DNA of 27,047 bases from a virus: IMG/VR virus record IMGVR_UViG_3300011995_000081, positions 1 through 27,047 of that record; one strand, given 5' to 3'. Within the stretch, counting starts at the first letter, position 1. Each line of letters begins with the position of its first letter. The notes below the pieces were generated by a model that made no database searches, was not told the DNA's origin, and saw only the letters and a list, made by a program, of their open reading frames with translations. This document shows, piece by piece, positions 10,564 to 22,532 of the stretch. The translations under genes and the position numbers were made by a program.

Positions 10564-13500
10564 TTATATTATTATTCCTACAGTACTATAGTACTGTCTT
10601 AAAGTTACAATAGCTGCAGCGGTAGTTTCTTTCCATGCATTAGTTCTCCAAAGATTATATTCTCTATTAGCTATATTAATAATTGAACTTACTACTCCGG
10701 TAGGTGGTCTTAAGATAACAAAATAATTTGGAGCAGAAGCGGTTCCGGTAGATAGTAGCCCGTCTGTAAGGGGTATATTGGTTTGTCCGACAGTATCTCC
10801 CACGTTGCCTCCTATCGCTACAGCAGTATTATTATTAATACTCACAATTATATCTCCATGGCTAGATCCACTCCATACACTCGTTCCGAATGTTAACCTA
10901 CTTGTTTCTCTATTTTTTACCACTAGATCTCCTAACAGTACTTTTGTTTTCCCGGGATCTAATACTTGAAAACCGCGGCTATTTCCTCTTAAAGATTGTG
11001 CGTATGCGGCATGACTATCGCTCGAAGGAAACGATACTTCGGCTTGTCGCATTACATAGCTAATAAAAGCTGCACTCCAAGGTGTACTTTCTATAATACT
11101 TAACGCTGTATTTCTTACTGTTGAAGGGAACTGTCCTTGATCTCTACTAGGAGTATAGACCGGTATTCTTAAGGCTGAATCCTCTCTTAATTTTATCATT
11201 TGACCTTTTATTTTTGTCAACCATTGATTACTTTCTATAGTATGACTCAATCCGGTCACAATAAATCCTACCTTAGTATATCCGTCGGAAGCTCTCAATG
11301 AACGAGGTAGCCTACTTTCAGGTACGGTAAAGGCATTACCCATTATTATCCCGCTGATACCGTCAATAGTTATTTCGAGATCGGCTGGAATAAAAGGTGC
11401 AGCTGTAGTTGCTTTATCTAGAGATTTTACTTTCGACATCCTCTCTATGTAGTAGTTTTTAGCCATCTCTATTTTCTCTTCAGTGAGTTGTGCATTTGAG
11501 TAAATACTTGCAACATGAGCATTAAAGGTATCTGCAGCTTTCTGATCATTTGAAGTGTCATTAACTCTGCCTGTATTTCCTGAAGCGTTACTATTTGTTC
11601 CTTTATTTCTATTTGTAGCATCTTCTACATAAGGCTTATACCTGTCTTGAAAAGACCTATTTAAATAGCTTAGAGAGGAATGGTCTTTAGCGTTTATAGA
11701 TCCTGTTGCTGCTTGAGCTGATATCGCTATCATACTTGCTAGCTTGGTAGAAAAGGTTGTTTTAAATTGAAATTCTCTAGCTAAACTAAATGTTGTTACA
11801 GACGGTAGACTTGTTGATTCAAAAACCGGTAATTGACCGGCTAGAATCGGATCTGTTTTTAAAGCTTCCTTATATTGAGTTCTATCTATGAGAGTTTTTT
11901 CGAGAGGTAAATTAGGGACCCATTGATCGTCTACTATCTGTATAGTGTTTGCATCATCTCTGTACGCAACTCTCAAAGCATTAATATTTCCTAACGATTT
12001 ATTAATATCTGCCACTATTCTCTCTAAGAACAACTGCAAATTTACAGCTTGTTCTTTATCTGCGTTTGAATATTCTTTGACTACTCTTAACAGATAATCG
12101 ATATTAAGTAGTATATTCATTATCTTACCTTGATAACGATTACTAATAGATTTAAAATACAATCCGTTTTCGTTTAAAGCAGCAGTAATCCTATTTTGTT
12201 TTTCCGGATTAAAAAATTCTCCGGTTTTAATACCTTCAGCAAATAAAGCTTTATACTCAAGATTATTTGCATTTAAAGGAATTAAACAAGTAAAAGGATC
12301 GATAGACATTTGTTGAGGAGAGCTTAAACAAAAATTAGTCTCTGGATTAAAATCTATATAAACGTACGGGCGTTTTTCAGTTCCTGCTGCGCTCTCAGTA
12401 CCGGTAGTCTTTTGTTTGGAATCATAAAATAAACACATATTATTTAAAAATGCTAATAAATACCCTAACTGCAGGTAAACAGGTATACGTACTGTAGTAG
12501 TAGGTGCATCAGGAGAAGATTTTGGATATCTTACAACGTATGCTTTACATAGATCGTTAAAATCAACAGTAGGAGTCTGTAATATTTTACTACCAAACAG
12601 GATTACTCCTTTTTTGTCATCAGGATAGGCCATAAAGTCTGCATTGAACCCTCTAAGTGCAAACTGAGTTAAATCAAAGGTACCAGGTTGAATATTTTCA
12701 TTAGGGCTAGTGCTTAATACTTTATCAAATATACCTCCTTGGTAAAATTGTCTAGTTATATCTACAATATCCACAGCTATAACAGGATTATCTAAATTTG
12801 CTTTTAATGCTTCAACCTGGCACCTAGATTGAATGATAGCTAACATAGCATCTAATGCAGACTGAAATCCTTGTGCGGATTCAATTTGTTGAGTATCAGG
12901 CTGATTGACATTGCCGTTAGCGTCGCCGGTATTCGGTTGTTGCGTTTCTTGAACGGGCGGGATTTGAGGTTGTTGAGCCTCAGCAGTAGACGCAATGAAG
13001 CCGGGGTTATTTGTTTCGAATTCCCAATTAATGACTTTGGTCGTAGAACTACCGCCCACAGTAACTATTACGTCTGTTTGAAAACTACCTTTTATTACGA
13101 TAAGTTCCCCGCTTGGTGCTACCACTTCTGTTATTACCGCTGGAGCTCCAGAATTAATCCATTTTTCTAGGGCTTGTATTACAAGTCTCCTAGTAACTGG
13201 ACGATTTGGGTCCGGAGCATTTACAGTTCCCTGTAATTGAAAATAGATTAATTTTTCTGTATTCGCTGGAGCTCCTAGTCTAACTCTAAATTCAGCTCTT
13301 AAGCCGCTACTATTTCCTGTGTTTGATACTAATGTACTGTCTAGTGATACTGAGGTTATGTTTGTACTAGCACCTCCTACACCGCCACTACTAGTAGTTG
13401 TATATTGCCGCGTTTGATACTGAAATAATCTAGCTAAAGGATTAAGACCTACCTGTTCTTCTGCTTCTACATTTATGTTTTGTTGAATTACAGGAAAGCG

Positions 13501-14793
13501 GTTGAAATATTCTTCTATAAAACTACTTATCGATCCTGGACCTGCAAATAATAATGTTGCACCTGTACTAAGGTTTGCATTTAAATTATAATAGATATTA
13601 CCTACAGGAATCCATAACCCGCCAAATTTTTCATTAGCAGCCTCTAGAGTTGCAAGGTCTTTATTAGTTAAAGAAGTTTTAAATTCTACAAACTGTGTAT
13701 CAAAATATTCACCGGTCTTAAAGTTACGTACACCTATTGCTAAATAATTTTGTATAAAGTCTTTGTAAGTTAAATCACTTGGTCCAATATACTCCTTTAC
13801 TAACCTGTAAAGCTCATCAGGATTGCCGGGTATTGCCGGTAGATTAACCCCGCTTAGTTCCTGTACTCCAGTTTCAGCCTGTATTGTTGCAAGTGATGCT
13901 TGAACTTGACGTTCGAGAACACTTTGTTCTTCTTTAAATTTTTTAACAGCGCCTTCAGGTAAAGTATAGGCTTGATTTATTCTCATGGAGTCCATAACAG
14001 CTCCTAGGCCTATCAGCCTTACTGTACAATCGTAACCTCCTTGTTGATTAAAAGACCAGTTAAAATTAGAAACTACCCCTAACATCCCGTCGTAGTTTCC
14101 AGATGTTTTTCTTGCTTTTCTTGCAATATCTTGTTGAATAGTTTCTTTAGTTCTATTAGGTCCAAAAGGGTTGTCAATTCCGTAGATTTCTTTCGATACA
14201 AATACACCATCCGGAACTATACTACCGTTAGAATTTGTATTACCGAAATACTGCGTATGTCCCCATTCTAGTAACATTGAATACCCGAGTCTGAAATAGA
14301 GGGCTTCTATAACATTCAACTGATTCATGTTCCATACGTTAAAAGTTATAGTTGCTTGTCTAAGTGAGCCTAGGCGTCCAGTAGTTTCTACCTGTACTGA
14401 TAGGAGACCAGGCATTGGTCTATACCCTAATTCTTCAGTTCCACCCAATCCGTATGCGCCATTAGGACCTATCCCTTGTCTTAGAGCGATACCGTTTCCT
14501 TTTTGTATAGAAGCTCCTGCTTCTAGTATCCAGTTTTGAGCTAAAGAATCAGGGTTCGGGTAGTCACCAGGGTCGAGTTCTAAATCATTGAAAAATATTC
14601 TCCGTTCATTTTCGCTTAAGGTAGTAACGTTTACAGAAGAAGTGAGTCGTGCCCAAGCCATTTTATTAGCTAAAAACAAAACTTCTTCATTGGATCTACT
14701 CAAGGTACTATTACGACGTGCTCTAACTGAAAGCTGTCTTAATACATCATCGCTAAATGGTGCACCAATGACGTTTGATAACTTAATTGCCAT
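10564..14793 (-). CDS. Giant baseplate protein with C-terminal DUF2272/NlpC-like domain
   Basis: 1409 aa, the largest gene here. The N-terminal ~190 residues hold a strand-rich segment (LSVQVETTGRLGSLRQATIT, then FNVWNMNQLNVIEALYFRLG and LLEWGHTQYFG) typical of baseplate hub/wedge domains that pack against a tail tube. The middle has Ser/Thr/Gln/Pro-rich linkers (about 470-500 and 610-640). The final ~187 residues (from about 1223) resemble DUF2272, a papain-like fold related to NlpC/CHAP hydrolases: TPWSAAFISYVMRQAEVSFP, then SHAAY, then SSHGDIIVS. The usual nucleophile Cys after PW is Ser (S1240); H1261 and H1312 remain. It may cut or only bind cell-wall peptides during infection. It overlaps the gp53-like gene by 11 bases and has no SD. 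The baseplate role is firm from context; the exact T4 counterpart is unclear. Confidence 0.72.
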   Translation of the reverse strand: MAIKLSNVIGAPFSDDVLRQLSVRARRNSTLSRSNEEVLFLANKMAWARLTSSVNVTTLSENERRIFFNDLELDPGDYPNPDSLAQNWILEAGASIQKGNGIALRQGIGPNGAYGLGGTEELGYRPMPGLLSVQVETTGRLGSLRQATITFNVWNMNQLNVIEALYFRLGYSMLLEWGHTQYFGNTNSNGSIVPDGVFVSKEIYGIDNPFGPNRTKETIQQDIARKARKTSGNYDGMLGVVSNFNWSFNQQGGYDCTVRLIGLGAVMDSMRINQAYTLPEGAVKKFKEEQSVLERQVQASLATIQAETGVQELSGVNLPAIPGNPDELYRLVKEYIGPSDLTYKDFIQNYLAIGVRNFKTGEYFDTQFVEFKTSLTNKDLATLEAANEKFGGLWIPVGNIYYNLNANLSTGATLLFAGPGSISSFIEEYFNRFPVIQQNINVEAEEQVGLNPLARLFQYQTRQYTTTSSGGVGGASTNITSVSLDSTLVSNTGNSSGLRAEFRVRLGAPANTEKLIYFQLQGTVNAPDPNRPVTRRLVIQALEKWINSGAPAVITEVVAPSGELIVIKGSFQTDVIVTVGGSSTTKVINWEFETNNPGFIASTAEAQQPQIPPVQETQQPNTGDANGNVNQPDTQQIESAQGFQSALDAMLAIIQSRCQVEALKANLDNPVIAVDIVDITRQFYQGGIFDKVLSTSPNENIQPGTFDLTQFALRGFNADFMAYPDDKKGVILFGSKILQTPTVDFNDLCKAYVVRYPKSSPDAPTTTVRIPVYLQLGYLLAFLNNMCLFYDSKQKTTGTESAAGTEKRPYVYIDFNPETNFCLSSPQQMSIDPFTCLIPLNANNLEYKALFAEGIKTGEFFNPEKQNRITAALNENGLYFKSISNRYQGKIMNILLNIDYLLRVVKEYSNADKEQAVNLQLFLERIVADINKSLGNINALRVAYRDDANTIQIVDDQWVPNLPLEKTLIDRTQYKEALKTDPILAGQLPVFESTSLPSVTTFSLAREFQFKTTFSTKLASMIAISAQAATGSINAKDHSSLSYLNRSFQDRYKPYVEDATNRNKGTNSNASGNTGRVNDTSNDQKAADTFNAHVASIYSNAQLTEEKIEMAKNYYIERMSKVKSLDKATTAAPFIPADLEITIDGISGIIMGNAFTVPESRLPRSLRASDGYTKVGFIVTGLSHTIESNQWLTKIKGQMIKLREDSALRIPVYTPSRDQGQFPSTVRNTALSIIESTPWSAAFISYVMRQAEVSFPSSDSHAAYAQSLRGNSRGFQVLDPGKTKVLLGDLVVKNRETSRLTFGTSVWSGSSHGDIIVSINNNTAVAIGGNVGDTVGQTNIPLTDGLLSTGTASAPNYFVILRPPTGVVSSIINIANREYNLWRTNAWKETTAAAIVTLRQYYSTVGIII

Positions 14794-17278: not shown

Positions 17279-19627
17279 TTACGCTTTATCTAATCCTGGG
17301 ATTTGATTGTATTTATTGAATATTATAGCTCCTACTTTCTGTCCATCTAAATAAACATTACCGACACTATCACCTCCGCTAATACTAGATGATTCTTTTC
17401 CGGTAACTTTTGTAGCTCCTACAGGAGCAGTGCTCTGTTGTCTAGTACCTTGTTGAATCGTTCCGCTAATTGATGGAGCAGTTTCTCCAAACATACCTCC
17501 GGCAGCTTCTGCAGCTCCTCTCATTCCGCTCGCTAATCCTACTGACCCTGCTCTAACAGAACCTGCTAGACCTTTCCACTTACTTGAATTGCCGCCAAAA
17601 AATCCTACTACACTACCTACTGCCTCTAATGCACTTGCTATAATATCGCCAATTAATTGAACAGCTCCTGCAAGTCTGTTTATTAACCCTGTTACAAAAC
17701 CTTGTATCTTTTGTGGGTTAGTGATAAAATCTAAAATACCGGACTTCTCTACAAACTCAATAAAAACATTTTTGATTCTATTCATCATTTCAGTAAGACG
17801 CTCGGCAGTAGATGTCTGTGTAATATAATTGTAAGCATCTTCTCCGATCTTCTCACTGATCTGAGCTTGTGTTAAACCTCTTTCTTTTAAGATTCGAAGC
17901 TCTTCTTGAGCTTGCTTTAAATTTGTAGCACCAAGCTTCCTATAATAATCTTGCTGCTTTAAGACATCAGCTAGTCCGTCTCTAGTCATACCGACAGATT
18001 CTGCAATCGCTTCTTGCTCGATCCTGTTCATCTTTAAATACTCATCTGTACTACCTACTTGAGTGTTTATCTCTTTTGCAAGAGTTACTAAATCGTTATT
18101 AAGCGCAGCTTCACGGGCTCTAGTTAGGTTAAGTTCTTTACCGGTCAAAACTTGGGCTTCCATTTCTTTTGAAATACTACCTTCAAAATCTAAAAAACTA
18201 CTTGCTATACTATCAAGCTGTTTAAGCTCAAATCCCATAGCTTTCGTCACCATGAGTGACTTAGTAAGCTTTTCGGGGTATTTTGTAAAGCTTAATCCCA
18301 GTACGCCGGCTTGTTTACTGGCTTGATTCAATACATCTCTAAACTCGAAAGCAACACCAGTCTCGAATTCAAAAGCTTTAGACTGAGCTAAAATAGTTTT
18401 TGTAAGTTTTTCTGCATTTTTACCTGTTGTAACGCTCGTCTGTGCAATAGCTTTTCTTGTTTCTAACTCTAACCCTGCGATTTCTTTTAACTTAACGTTA
18501 TTATCTAAGATACTATTTGAAAAACGGCTTCTAACACCTAGAGCTTTGGTTAACTCTACTTGCGACTCCATTAATCTTGTCTCATTAACTACTACATTAT
18601 CGCTAGCTCTTGCAATAGCTCTAAATTCATCTTTTAACCCTGTTGCTCTATCTTTAGAAACCCCTAGATTTCGTGCTAAGTTTGTAATACCCTGATCAAG
18701 CCCTAAAGTCAGTTCAACTGCAGTCTTAAATAAATTAACAAGTCCGCCAAGTAGGCCTCCAACAATTGGTATCTTACTCACTAATTCTCCAAAACCTCCT
18801 ATAAGACTGCCGATACCTGATGCACCGGCACCGGATATAGCTCCGCCACCTATTCCCATTCCCCCTCCTATACCTCCTGATACTAAACTGGAAGCCTGTG
18901 ACAAAGGTGCTACAATATTTTTAGCTAGATCTTTACCTAATCCTGCAACATAGCTTTTCAATTGTGTTAAACCGGCTAATAAAAGAGCTACTCCGCCTGC
19001 TACCGCTACTGCTTTTCCTGCTCCTCCACCAGGTGCTCCTGCAGCACCAGCTGTCGTACCCCCTCCTCCTCCTGGAGGTATATTTGCACCTCCTCCTGCT
19101 CTTGCTCTAGCTAATGCTCTTTGTTGTTCTCGCGCTTCTTTCGATCTAAAGAGATCCATTATTTTAAATCCAACACCTCTTTCCTTGTTTATATCTTTTA
19201 TTAAATTTCTTTCTGCTAGAGCATTCTCTTTTCTCTTTTTAGCTTCCGCCATTATAGCAGCTAAAGCTCCTCCCGAAGTTTGCTTTATTTGTTCTTGTTT
19301 TTTCTTCTCTAACTGGAGTTCTTTCTCCATTTGCTTAACAAGAACTGTGTTATTGTTTAATCTAGCTGCTTTAAGAGTTTCTTCGAGATTAAGTATTTCT
19401 TTGCTAGAGCGATTATATAGAGCTGCATTTCTTACCTGCTCTCTACTAAGAGCCTTAATCTGTTCGTGTATCGATTTTTCTTGTTCTGCAGCTTTCTTAG
19501 CTTCTCTTTTTAGGTTGAGTAAATTTTTCATACTCATAGCCTGCTCATCGAGATAGCGTACCTGCTCTCTAAGCTCTTTTTCTTCTGGGGTTAGACCACC
19601 TCCTTGATTTGGTGGAGTTGCTGCCAT
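17279..19627 (-). CDS. Tail tape measure protein
   Basis: 782 aa. It sets tail length and fills the tube. Residues 12-175 are Lys/Glu/Gln-rich and heptad-like, a long predicted coiled coil (for example LRQ- and LEK-type spacing in KQMEKELQLEKKKQEQIKQ). A Gly-rich hinge follows (178-204), then a hydrophobic stretch, AVAVAGGVALLLAGL (206-220), and a Gly/Ala/Ile-rich region (250-300), typical of the membrane-active parts of tape measures. The remainder alternates amphipathic helices, and a second hydrophobic segment lies near 650-690. Position confirms it: it follows the chaperone G/T pair and precedes baseplate genes. By the usual ruler relation (about 0.15 nm per residue) the tail would be roughly 115 nm. 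No hydrolase domain is visible. Confidence 0.88.
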   Translation of the reverse strand: MAATPPNQGGGLTPEEKELREQVRYLDEQAMSMKNLLNLKREAKKAAEQEKSIHEQIKALSREQVRNAALYNRSSKEILNLEETLKAARLNNNTVLVKQMEKELQLEKKKQEQIKQTSGGALAAIMAEAKKRKENALAERNLIKDINKERGVGFKIMDLFRSKEAREQQRALARARAGGGANIPPGGGGGTTAGAAGAPGGGAGKAVAVAGGVALLLAGLTQLKSYVAGLGKDLAKNIVAPLSQASSLVSGGIGGGMGIGGGAISGAGASGIGSLIGGFGELVSKIPIVGGLLGGLVNLFKTAVELTLGLDQGITNLARNLGVSKDRATGLKDEFRAIARASDNVVVNETRLMESQVELTKALGVRSRFSNSILDNNVKLKEIAGLELETRKAIAQTSVTTGKNAEKLTKTILAQSKAFEFETGVAFEFRDVLNQASKQAGVLGLSFTKYPEKLTKSLMVTKAMGFELKQLDSIASSFLDFEGSISKEMEAQVLTGKELNLTRAREAALNNDLVTLAKEINTQVGSTDEYLKMNRIEQEAIAESVGMTRDGLADVLKQQDYYRKLGATNLKQAQEELRILKERGLTQAQISEKIGEDAYNYITQTSTAERLTEMMNRIKNVFIEFVEKSGILDFITNPQKIQGFVTGLINRLAGAVQLIGDIIASALEAVGSVVGFFGGNSSKWKGLAGSVRAGSVGLASGMRGAAEAAGGMFGETAPSISGTIQQGTRQQSTAPVGATKVTGKESSSISGGDSVGNVYLDGQKVGAIIFNKYNQIPGLDKA

Positions 19628-19661: not shown

Positions 19662-19931
19662 TTACTTCTTTTTTACCTTAGAAATATATGTAGGTGGTTC
19701 AGTCTTCGGTTTGATATCTGGTTTAGAAATCAAAGGTTTATCGGCTGTAACAATTTGTTGCTCGTTACGAATTTCTTGTAATTTTTCAAGATGTTCGTTA
19801 ATAAACTTAATGTTAAGACGTCTTTCGCTGACAGGCATATCCATGACTTCAGACCATAGAAAACCGCCACCGCCATGATAAGTAAGTTCGAAGACTTCTC
19901 TTTTAAAGATTTGCCTATACTCAACTCCCGG
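19662..19931 (-). CDS. Frameshifted C-terminal part of the tail chaperone (T-like), 89 codons
   Basis: This frame is +1 (equal to -2) relative to the gp26-like gene and joins it at the T9 run. Read from there it gives PGVEYRQIFKREVFELTYHG, then GGGFLWSEVMDMPVSERRLN and IKFINEHLEKLQEI, ending in a Lys-rich tail (SKVKKK). The block 'vfeltyhg.gg...Sev..MPv..r' is the pattern of the second-frame part of tail assembly chaperones in other phages. Upstream in this frame there is a TGA within 18 codons, with no ATG, GTG or TTG before the conserved block; the first ATG (19844) lies inside it. So this part is best explained as the tail of a fusion of about 336 residues. An assembly or sequencing error in the run, or transcript slippage, are the alternatives. 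Confidence 0.6.
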   Translation of the reverse strand, partial: PGVEYRQIFKREVFELTYHGGGGFLWSEVMDMPVSERRLNIKFINEHLEKLQEIRNEQQIVTADKPLISKPDIKPKTEPPTYISKVKKK

Positions 19932-20673
19932 GAAAAAAAAATTCCGCTGTCAACGGCAGGCTCTCCTCAACCTCTTTTCCAGATGAAAGTGTAAAATTAA
20001 CCGTTAAATCGATATCTGGTGTGATCGATCCGATATAGGCTCTTAACGGATTGGAATCTTTAGCAATTAATGCGTTATCTACAAAATCCCGTACTGTCTT
20101 AGCTTCATAATCTCCATTAACAGATAGGATCTGCCTCTTGAGACGGGTCGTAATTTCTCCGGCCGCTAGGTTAACTTTCTTGAGGCTCTTAATTTCTGCA
20201 TCAATAGCCTTTTCGTCTTCAATAGTAAAGAGTTTGAAAGTTAGCGTGTTTTTAGAGTTTGGTAGCTGAAAAGTAAACTCGTTTTTATTCCGGAAAAGAG
20301 TATGATCTACTTTCTTGTTTTTTAAGCTCTGTAAATCAATAGTGACTGTCTCTTTTATTTCAGTTTCAGGATCTGTATATTCAAAGCTATACTGGGATCC
20401 ATAAGCGAGAATACGTGCAGCTATTAACAAAGCATTTCTATCACCTAATAAAAGATCCTCGTATCTCACCGGGGATTTAATGAGAGATTGAAGCATTTTC
20501 TCAATTGCAATACCTTGCTTGAGCAGGTTAACATTGGTAAGAATATCTTCCTCACGGGCAGTCATATACTTCATTTCAATGGTCCCGGAAGAGAGAGGGT
20601 TAGTTGTGTCGTAAACTTTACCTTTGGAAGGTAATTCAATAGTTTCTGTAGGGATTGAAAACTTTTCGGCCAT
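19921..20673 (-). CDS. 26: T4 gp26-like baseplate/tail assembly protein (G-like chaperone)
   Basis: 250 aa. It begins MAEKFSIPTETIELPSKGKV, then YMTAREEDILTN and a helical segment IEKMLQSLIKSPVRYEDLLL, followed by DRNALLIAARILAYG. The 'iPs.G..Y......g.v.mkymta.eEdiLt' opening is that of the T4 base plate (gp26) family. T4 gp26 is 208 aa. Directly ahead of a tape measure it occupies the place of gpG-type tail assembly chaperones, which keep the tape measure soluble during assembly. The last codons (AEFFFPGS) run over a T9 stretch, where about one third more protein can be added by changing frame. Fifty bases separate it from the membrane protein upstream, and an inverted repeat (20692-20711) lies just before the ATG. 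No SD. Confidence 0.8.
   Translation of the reverse strand: MAEKFSIPTETIELPSKGKVYDTTNPLSSGTIEMKYMTAREEDILTNVNLLKQGIAIEKMLQSLIKSPVRYEDLLLGDRNALLIAARILAYGSQYSFEYTDPETEIKETVTIDLQSLKNKKVDHTLFRNKNEFTFQLPNSKNTLTFKLFTIEDEKAIDAEIKSLKKVNLAAGEITTRLKRQILSVNGDYEAKTVRDFVDNALIAKDSNPLRAYIGSITPDIDLTVNFTLSSGKEVEESLPLTAEFFFPGS
19933..19941 (-). other. Nine-T slippery run, candidate programmed frameshift site
   Basis: The minus strand reads GAA TTT TTT TTT CCC GGG AGT TGA, so the frame-0 product stops 12 bases past the run. A +1 slip of tRNA-Phe from TTT to TTC, or a -2 slip along the T run, both enter the open T frame. The run is also long enough for transcription slippage. Confidence 0.6.
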
Positions 20674-20722: not shown

Positions 20723-21037
20723 CTACTTGATCTTAAAAATATTTCGGATAATACTTACAGCATAATTATAGATATCCAAAGCAATAAAGACATATAATAC
20801 TGCTGTAGTGGTCCATACCATACCGTGAAATAGCCAAAGTAATCCAAAGCCTTCCATCTTATCGTTACTTCCGAAAAAGAGATACCATAAAAAAGCAGTT
20901 ATAAGAGAGCCGGTAATGATATAAAAGATTACCTGCAAAACTAGCCAGGTAATTAAAATCTCTCCCCAGAAGTTTCTAACAAATACTGCTAGCAAGAGTA
21001 GAATCGGTACAGCAATTAAAAAAGTAGTAAGCGTCAT
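20723..21037 (-). CDS. Small membrane protein with three predicted helices, 104 aa
   Basis: I do not recognise the family. Hydrophobic segments lie at about 3-24 (TLTTFLIAVPILLLLAVFV), 30-53 (ILITWLVLQVIFYIITGSLI) and 68-92 (WLFHGMVWTTTAVLYVFIAL), with a basic C-terminus (RNIFKIK). Nothing like this is expected between tube and chaperone genes in T4. A three-helix small protein could be a holin or a host-membrane effector, but no lysis enzyme is adjacent, so I leave it unassigned. It has its own sigma70-like promoter (21058-21086), lying behind the terminator of the tail tube gene, so it starts a new transcript that continues into the chaperone and tape measure genes. ATG at 21037, no SD. Confidence 0.65.
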   Translation of the reverse strand: MTLTTFLIAVPILLLLAVFVRNFWGEILITWLVLQVIFYIITGSLITAFLWYLFFGSNDKMEGFGLLWLFHGMVWTTTAVLYVFIALDIYNYAVSIIRNIFKIK

Positions 21038-21758: not shown

Positions 21759-22532
21759 TTATTTCTTACCGTAGTAACTTAATTTTTTAGGATCAACAAC
21801 AACACCTTTAAGCTCTTTAGGCATTTTACCGTAGGTTTGGTAATCTTGTGGTGCTACTTTAAGAGAGGCTCCAGCGTCGTTAATATCAACAATTTCATAT
21901 GTTCCTTCGTTTTCTCCGTTTGGTTGCTGATTATAAACTACGTAATCACCTTTACCGACTTTAACCATAGTTTTTGGATCATTTTTATCTGGAATAGTAA
22001 TTTTCTTACCTAATCCGAGAAATTCTTGTACTTTTTTCTTTTCGGGTAATATACCTCCTTCACCAGAACCACCTGCTGTTTTCTGAACCTTGCCTGTAAG
22101 TTCTGCACCTATCATTTTTTCGATTTCATCGTCAGACTTACCTGCATATTTAGGATCTTTCTTTAACTTAGATGCCATTTTCTTAACACCTAGCTTAATA
22201 AAGCCTGCGATAGCAGCACCACTTGTACCGAGAATTGCAAGACTTTGTAGGAAAGATTTAAAAGTTTCTGGGTCTGAAAGAAGCTGTTGGATTGGTTCAG
22301 CTATCTCTTCTACTTTATCTTTCTTTTCAGCTACTCTAGTCTCCATTTCTTCCATAGACTTCATTTTATCAGTAGCTTTAACTTCAGGAGCTTTTTCTTT
22401 TTTATCTTTTTTAACTTTAACCTCTTCCATTCCTGCGCCAAAATTTTTCTTGGACTCAGTAATTACTTGCTTGGCAAGAGATTCAAATAATTGCTTTGAT
22501 AAATGTAATCTAACTTTCGTATTATTTTTCAT
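21759..22532 (-). CDS. Lys-rich predicted virion protein, 257 aa, unknown
   Basis: No named family recognised. It starts MKNNTKVRLHLSKQLFESLA with a helix (KQVITESKK), then a highly charged Lys/Glu stretch (about 38-80) likely to be coiled coil. A small hydrophobic helix, SLAILGTSGAAIAGFIKLGV (97-116), might touch membrane or be buried. After a Lys/Gly-rich hinge, the final ~80 residues form a strand-rich part (KVGKGDYVVYNQQPNGENEG and the segment after) resembling an SH3- or KOW-like barrel. It lies between sheath and tube, so it is probably a tail or neck component, or a virion-delivered protein. The 'hLSKqLfe.L..qv' opening recalls N-termini of other phage structural proteins. Gap to the sheath gene upstream: 18 bases. 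Confidence 0.65.
   Translation of the reverse strand: MKNNTKVRLHLSKQLFESLAKQVITESKKNFGAGMEEVKVKKDKKEKAPEVKATDKMKSMEEMETRVAEKKDKVEEIAEPIQQLLSDPETFKSFLQSLAILGTSGAAIAGFIKLGVKKMASKLKKDPKYAGKSDDEIEKMIGAELTGKVQKTAGGSGEGGILPEKKKVQEFLGLGKKITIPDKNDPKTMVKVGKGDYVVYNQQPNGENEGTYEIVDINDAGASLKVAPQDYQTYGKMPKELKGVVVDPKKLSYYGKK

Follow-up and report, generated by a model that had tools for sequence, protein, structure and literature searches.

Gene layout at the locus

The window, by which we mean the whole stretch of 27,047 nucleotides of viral DNA that was analysed (IMG/VR record IMGVR_UViG_3300011995_000081), carries two overlapping open reading frames that are out of frame with each other and lie directly upstream of a probable tape measure gene, which is the arrangement found in tail assembly chaperone (TAC) gene pairs of the G/GT type. 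The features, all on the minus strand, are the following:

19921..20673, minus strand: TAC-N (G-like) gene of the gp26/gp51 family (PF12322, phrog_150), with a zero-frame product of 250 amino acids
19921-19923, minus strand: TGA stop of the TAC-N gene
19963..19968, minus strand: GAGGAG, corresponding in the window to a Shine-Dalgarno-like element that stood out in the shuffle comparison of relatives
19933-19941, minus strand: run of nine T (T9), read from the sequence
19932..19941, minus strand: predicted shift site TTT TTT TTT C, with three possible UUU_Y, the last being UUU at 19933-19935 and then C at 19932
19662..19931, minus strand: putative TAC-C (T-like) extension of 89 codons, PGVEYRQIFKREVFELTYHGGGGF...KVKKK, in the +1/-2 frame, ending with TAA at 19662-19664
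17279..19627, minus strand: probable tape measure gene, 782 amino acids, assigned by position only and by the annotation in relatives

The TAC-N gene ends on the minus strand with GAA TTT TTT TTT CCC GGG AGT TGA, and its T9 run is the only homopolymer of eight or more nucleotides in the window. In the +1/-2 frame a stop is located 8 codons ahead of the TGA of the TAC-N gene; from there no further stop occurs until the TAA at 19662-19664, which precedes the tape measure ORF beginning at 19627. The first start codon of this second frame is the ATG at 19844 (MDMPVSERR), which already lies within a conserved block, and the window therefore has, as in G/GT pairs, a conserved and coding downstream frame without a start of its own before the block. 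A sequence-only reading of this DNA had described a gp26-like gene with a T9 run at its end, a frame of 89 codons that continues ahead of the tape measure, and the lack of a start codon before the conserved block; all three descriptions are borne out, the first of them also by the match of the zero-frame protein to PF12322.

The gene order sheath, tube, TAC gene, tape measure is common to the window, to Flavobacterium phage immuto and to Bacillus phage SP-15, and a tape measure is annotated at the equivalent place in immuto and SP-15. An ORF of 257 amino acids (window 21759-22532, minus strand) without a clear family match is located between sheath and tube, and a hydrophobic ORF of 104 amino acids (window 20723-21037, minus strand) without family matches separates the tail tube gene from that of the TAC. 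The window also encodes a 1409-amino-acid tail-region protein (10564-14793, minus strand), whose C-terminal part matches TIGR02594 only weakly (E 4e-4, below the cut-off).

The zero-frame protein matches PF12322 with E=1.4e-10 and 41.7 bits (cut-off 24.5) over positions 9-218 of the 219 in the profile, and phrog_150 ("baseplate hub") with E=1.9e-16. Both gp26 and gp51 of T4 fall in this PF12322/phrog_150 family, of which T4 has two copies and the window, a partial genome, one. A single PF12322 copy is also found in the complete genomes of the shifting relatives SP-15, LIS04, GXN1, Atu_ph07, Phosso, 121Q, S-SM1 and LR756508, and in the 162-kb contig of locus L053; LR756511 likewise has a single copy, but there the second part is read from a start of its own. 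Two genes for the short and the long form, in the manner of T4, were found neither in the window nor in the relatives detected with the profile. It should be noted, however, that immuto, Mel-JY01 and two contigs, though relatives by sequence similarity, were not matched by the profile, and the copy-number argument is therefore limited to genomes in which the family was detected.

TAC-N and the T part were modelled separately. The model of the zero-frame protein (AlphaFold, 47 sequences) has a pLDDT of 92.4 and a pTM of 0.87. When it was compared with solved chains (987 aligned), the first match was YqbN (3klu; Z 5.2, 79 residues aligned, rmsd 3.7), which we take to be a phage-type chaperone, and the second was the HK97 tail assembly chaperone (2ob9; Z 4.6, 95 residues aligned, rmsd 4.2). 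The presence of a known TAC, that of HK97, among the two best fold matches of the model is suggestive only, the Z-scores being low (under 8).

Selection on the second frame and its homology

That the second frame is translated is indicated by the way in which it varies. Substitutions were counted with the window as reference in 55 relatives that differ from it by 2-30%, over the 55 T-frame codons that follow the stop and with duplicates of one contig included; they fall on T-frame codon positions 1, 2 and 3 in the ratio 466/244/1445. Among the T-frame codons with a single difference, 1039 differ synonymously and 143 nonsynonymously, and the omega-like ratio is 0.03. Judged from this codon-position pattern and this ratio, purifying selection acts strongly on the second frame, which is a real protein.

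What kind of protein it is has to be approached via intermediates. The T part, which the sequence-only reading had called typical of the second part of tail chaperones, has no direct family match in Pfam, PHROGs or NCBIfam, and the designation is supported via profiles instead. The T-part profile of the relatives with a +1/-2 offset (the +1 group) matches that of relatives with a -1 offset (the -1 group, jumbo phages and cyanophages) with a probability of 97.5%, and the profile of the -1 group matches the C-terminus of gp51 with 90.5%, whereas the direct comparison of the +1 group with the gp51 C-terminus gives only 42%. In addition, phrog_634 ("baseplate hub assembly catalyst") covers residues 147-246 of gp51 and two T parts of the -1 group, which are taken to be those of the two cyanophage rows. 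The single T4 gp26 and gp51 sequences gave no usable score against the narrow fused profile, and intermediates were needed. AlphaFold predicts the T part as three helices with moderate confidence (pLDDT 77); comparison of this model with solved structures yielded weak, uninformative matches only (best Z 3.0).

The predicted shift site in relatives and the probable direction of the shift

Relatives were collected in five scans of viral contigs and in searches of cultured phages. Among the first 80, the +1/-2 offset is found wherever the sequence spans the whole site, apart from a few cases with a separate second gene. Altogether the second part lies in the +1/-2 frame at 223 loci, of which 222 are complete across the site, corresponding to 151 distinct sequences. 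The sequence-only reading had suggested an alignment of relatives for both the T run and the offset, and the two fared differently: the offset is kept in 222 of the 222 complete loci, whereas the maximal T run among the 151 distinct sequences is 9 (32 sequences), 7 (48), 6 (22), 4 (11) or 3 (38). Since the run varies from 3 to 9 while the offset is constant, it is the offset and not the run that is conserved.

Common to all these loci is a UUU followed by T or C. All 222 complete loci and all 71 diverse representatives have it in frame, so that a slippery sequence, the classic +1 site UUU_Y, is kept at the junction of the two ORFs, as in genes of the G/GT type, and a slip at this in-frame UUU_Y would enter the downstream frame. 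For example, AGCTTTCTTTGG, GGCTTCTTTTGG, AGCTTTCTTCTC, AACTTTCTATTC and TTCTTTCGT are from lineages with runs of only 3-4 T in which the UUU_Y +1 site is retained. It must be considered that the other Phe codons before a pyrimidine are UUU in 67% of the cases in these genes, and UUU at the site is therefore only moderately unusual in any single sequence. There are 18 representatives with a single UUU_Y, and all have UUU; codon usage gives p about 7e-4 for this if relatedness is ignored, the sequences being not fully independent. CCC was also considered as shift codon (CCC_T before the stop), but it is present only at L047, L052 and L053 of the first set and is thus not general.

These findings make it very probable that one gene yields both TAC-N and a longer form, TAC-NC, for which +1 ribosomal frameshifting at UUU_Y is the best reading. 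Normal translation would give TAC-N (250 amino acids). A minority of the ribosomes would slip by +1 on a UUU followed by a pyrimidine, the P-site tRNA-Phe re-pairing from UUU to UUU or UUC, and would then continue in the T frame to give TAC-NC (336 amino acids) with a C-terminal helical T domain. By analogy with G/GT of lambda, TAC-N could coat the tape measure protein and TAC-NC could recruit tube subunits. If there is frameshifting, the comparison of relatives makes it likely that the slippage is ribosomal and +1. This direction is favoured because UUU_Y is universal, because re-pairing after a -2 slip is not, because the runs can be short, and because in bacteria a +1 shift is recorded as happening with particular ease at UUU_Ynn, also where no stop codon follows (PMC5009743). 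The predicted slip, most likely +1 at a UUU codon, is retained over a very wide range of phages.

The same frame would be reached by a -2 ribosomal slip on the U run, as in phage Mu, and the two directions predict different junctions: in the window the +1 product would read EVEESLPLTAEFFFPGVEYR with three Phe, and the -2 product would have one extra Phe, AEFFFFPGVEYR. Every zero-frame codon of the overlap was inspected for whether the P-site tRNA could fully re-pair after a +1 or a -2 slip. Re-pairing of UUU to UUU after -2 is possible in 54 of the 71 representatives, the window among them. It is impossible in the other 17, which belong to at least five lineages and have the same offset; these are the immuto-like group (AGC TTT CTT TGG), the L148-L162 group (TTC TTT TGG), the L066 group (TTT CTT CTC), a 484-kb uncultured phage (TTT CTA TTC) and Streptococcus phage GXN1 (TTC TTT CGT). 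A -2 slip in the window would thus require a change of direction between sister lineages, and we consider it unlikely. The chaperone pair that the sequence-only reading had given as +1/-2 is supported as a gp26-type pair joined by a shift at the U run, and the comparison favours +1 at UUU_Y over the Mu-like -2.

Slightly more improbable still is that RNA polymerase slips on the T9 run, giving mRNAs with T8 (or T11) which the ribosomes translate in frame. Nine T is a length known for transcriptional slippage, and T9 is retained in the clade of the window (32 distinct sequences). However, sister lineages with the equal offset have runs of 3, 4, 6 or 7, of which at least those of 3-4 are too short. 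The T9 clade to which the window belongs has sequences that would suit -2 slippage and transcriptional slippage just as well; it is the relatives outside this clade that speak for +1 slippage of the ribosome.

Quite improbable is the explanation that the T part is a separate protein, made from its own start or by re-initiation, without any fusion. A start codon is present before the GG[FY] block in 107 of the 151 distinct +1 loci, but neither ATG nor GTG nor TTG precedes the conserved block in the other 44, which include the arrangement of the window. A T part with its own start, to which the sequence-only reading had given weight against a shift, does occur, albeit in rare lineages only (L054, L063, L085, L158 and L163, and, split by an endonuclease, L125 and L146), and it leaves the case for a shift in the window standing. 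Since some relatives start the T part on their own, fusion is not universally required. Several of these few lineages have lost the UUU at the old site: L054 has TTC TTC TTC, L158 has TTC TTG and L163 has TTC CTT. That the three combine a stand-alone T part with the loss of UUU fits UUU being kept for shifting. At L125 and L146 (2272-2847) a homing-endonuclease-like ORF (phrog_314, E 1.3e-9) occupies the shift site, immediately behind the TAC-N gene, and the ATG of the T part (2840) overlaps the stop of the endonuclease (2845-2847). From similar N-termini one might guess that the forms of L054 and L063 are scars of such insertions.

Finally, homopolymers are prone to sequencing and assembly errors, but an error here, such as a true run of T8 or T10, has a negligible probability and is refuted by the relatives: 151 distinct sequences share the offset, as do cultured phages whose runs are 3-7 long, and the constancy of the offset at varying run length also excludes it.

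Many of the loci have a Shine-Dalgarno-like GGAGG element about 22-26 nucleotides upstream of the first UUU (e.g., L057, L169 and L148). This far element is stronger than in synonymous shuffles (71 representatives; z about -13 when pooled, a value inflated by relatedness); short-run lineages have it in its strongest form, and it is weak in the T9 clade of the window. A second, weaker Shine-Dalgarno-like element is found at -2 to -8 and resembles the spacing in RF2. The far element was considered as a classical stimulator and rejected, its spacing fitting neither that of RF2 (3 nucleotides) nor that of dnaX (about 10 nucleotides); we know of no stimulator that it fits.

Relation to known recoding systems and meaning for the family

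The TAC genes of T4-like phages have been identified (Vladimirov, Gautam & Davidson, 2022, Virology 566:9; known to us through papers citing it). According to the relevant passages of these papers, shifting is replaced in some T4-like phages by two genes, one short and one long (PRFect, PMC10885494, after Vladimirov et al., 2022), and poly-T stretches are known -1 signals in T4-like TAC-N genes (Adele paper, PMC12846349, citing Vladimirov et al., 2022). In tailed phages -1, -2 or +1 shifts are used for the TAC product pair, T4 having been considered an exception (PMC5009743). The kind of system is, given this literature, already known, and the tie between gp26 and the G/GT chaperones, which had been put forward as new from the sequence alone, is already contained in Vladimirov et al. 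(2022) as represented in the citing papers, one of which states the T4-like poly-T -1 signals (PMC12846349). In the literature searched, which reflects Vladimirov et al. (2022) through the citing papers, no description was found of a UUU_Y +1 site in the gp26 family, and in the parts of that literature available none was found of a homing-endonuclease insertion at the shift site, as observed here at two loci.

Compared with the TACs of T4-like phages, the gene of the window belongs to the same family, PF12322. T4, however, has the separate genes 26 and 51, gp51 having an extra C-terminus, whereas the lineage of the window has one gene and a change of frame. In cyanophages and jumbo phages (121Q, GAP32, Atu_ph07, XacN1, PA5oct and others) the second part lies in the -1 frame, mostly after U_UUU_UUC, in contrast to the +1/-2 offset of the window lineage. 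In the cyanophage S-SM1 (L099:2573-2755) an annotated "gp51" of 60 amino acids is a shortened TAC-C extension in the -1 frame and not the equivalent of full-length T4 gp51. In lambda, low-level frameshifting in one gene ahead of the tape measure likewise gives both the short G and the long GT, as is predicted for the window, although lambda shifts by -1. The frame offset of the phage Mu TAC is the same, but it is reached by -2 in Mu, and the comparison made here favours +1. Another myovirus, the haloarchaeal phage HSTV-2, very likely also uses the +1 direction in its TAC gene (PMC5009743). Finally, UUU_Ynn +1 sites such as that of yopN-tyeA work by the same tetranucleotide logic and likewise have no stop codon behind them (PMC5009743); they are in different genes, whereas the site of the window type is deeply conserved in a structural-assembly gene.

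On balance we favour the wider view that an entire branch of the T4-like and jumbo myoviruses relies on a bare UUU_Y +1 site without an adjacent stop codon to set the ratio of TAC-N to TAC-NC, and that one homologous family has switched among +1 shifting, -1 shifting, a stand-alone T part and gene duplication, partly via homing endonucleases inserting at the shift site. The finding explains a stretch that is un- or misannotated in many environmental and cultured phages, e.g., the "hypothetical protein" of immuto and the 60-amino-acid "gp51" of S-SM1. With +1, -1, separate genes and duplication in one homologous gene, it can be tested how the direction of recoding evolves, and the same gene family can be used to test whether it is the ratio of N to NC or the physical fusion that matters.
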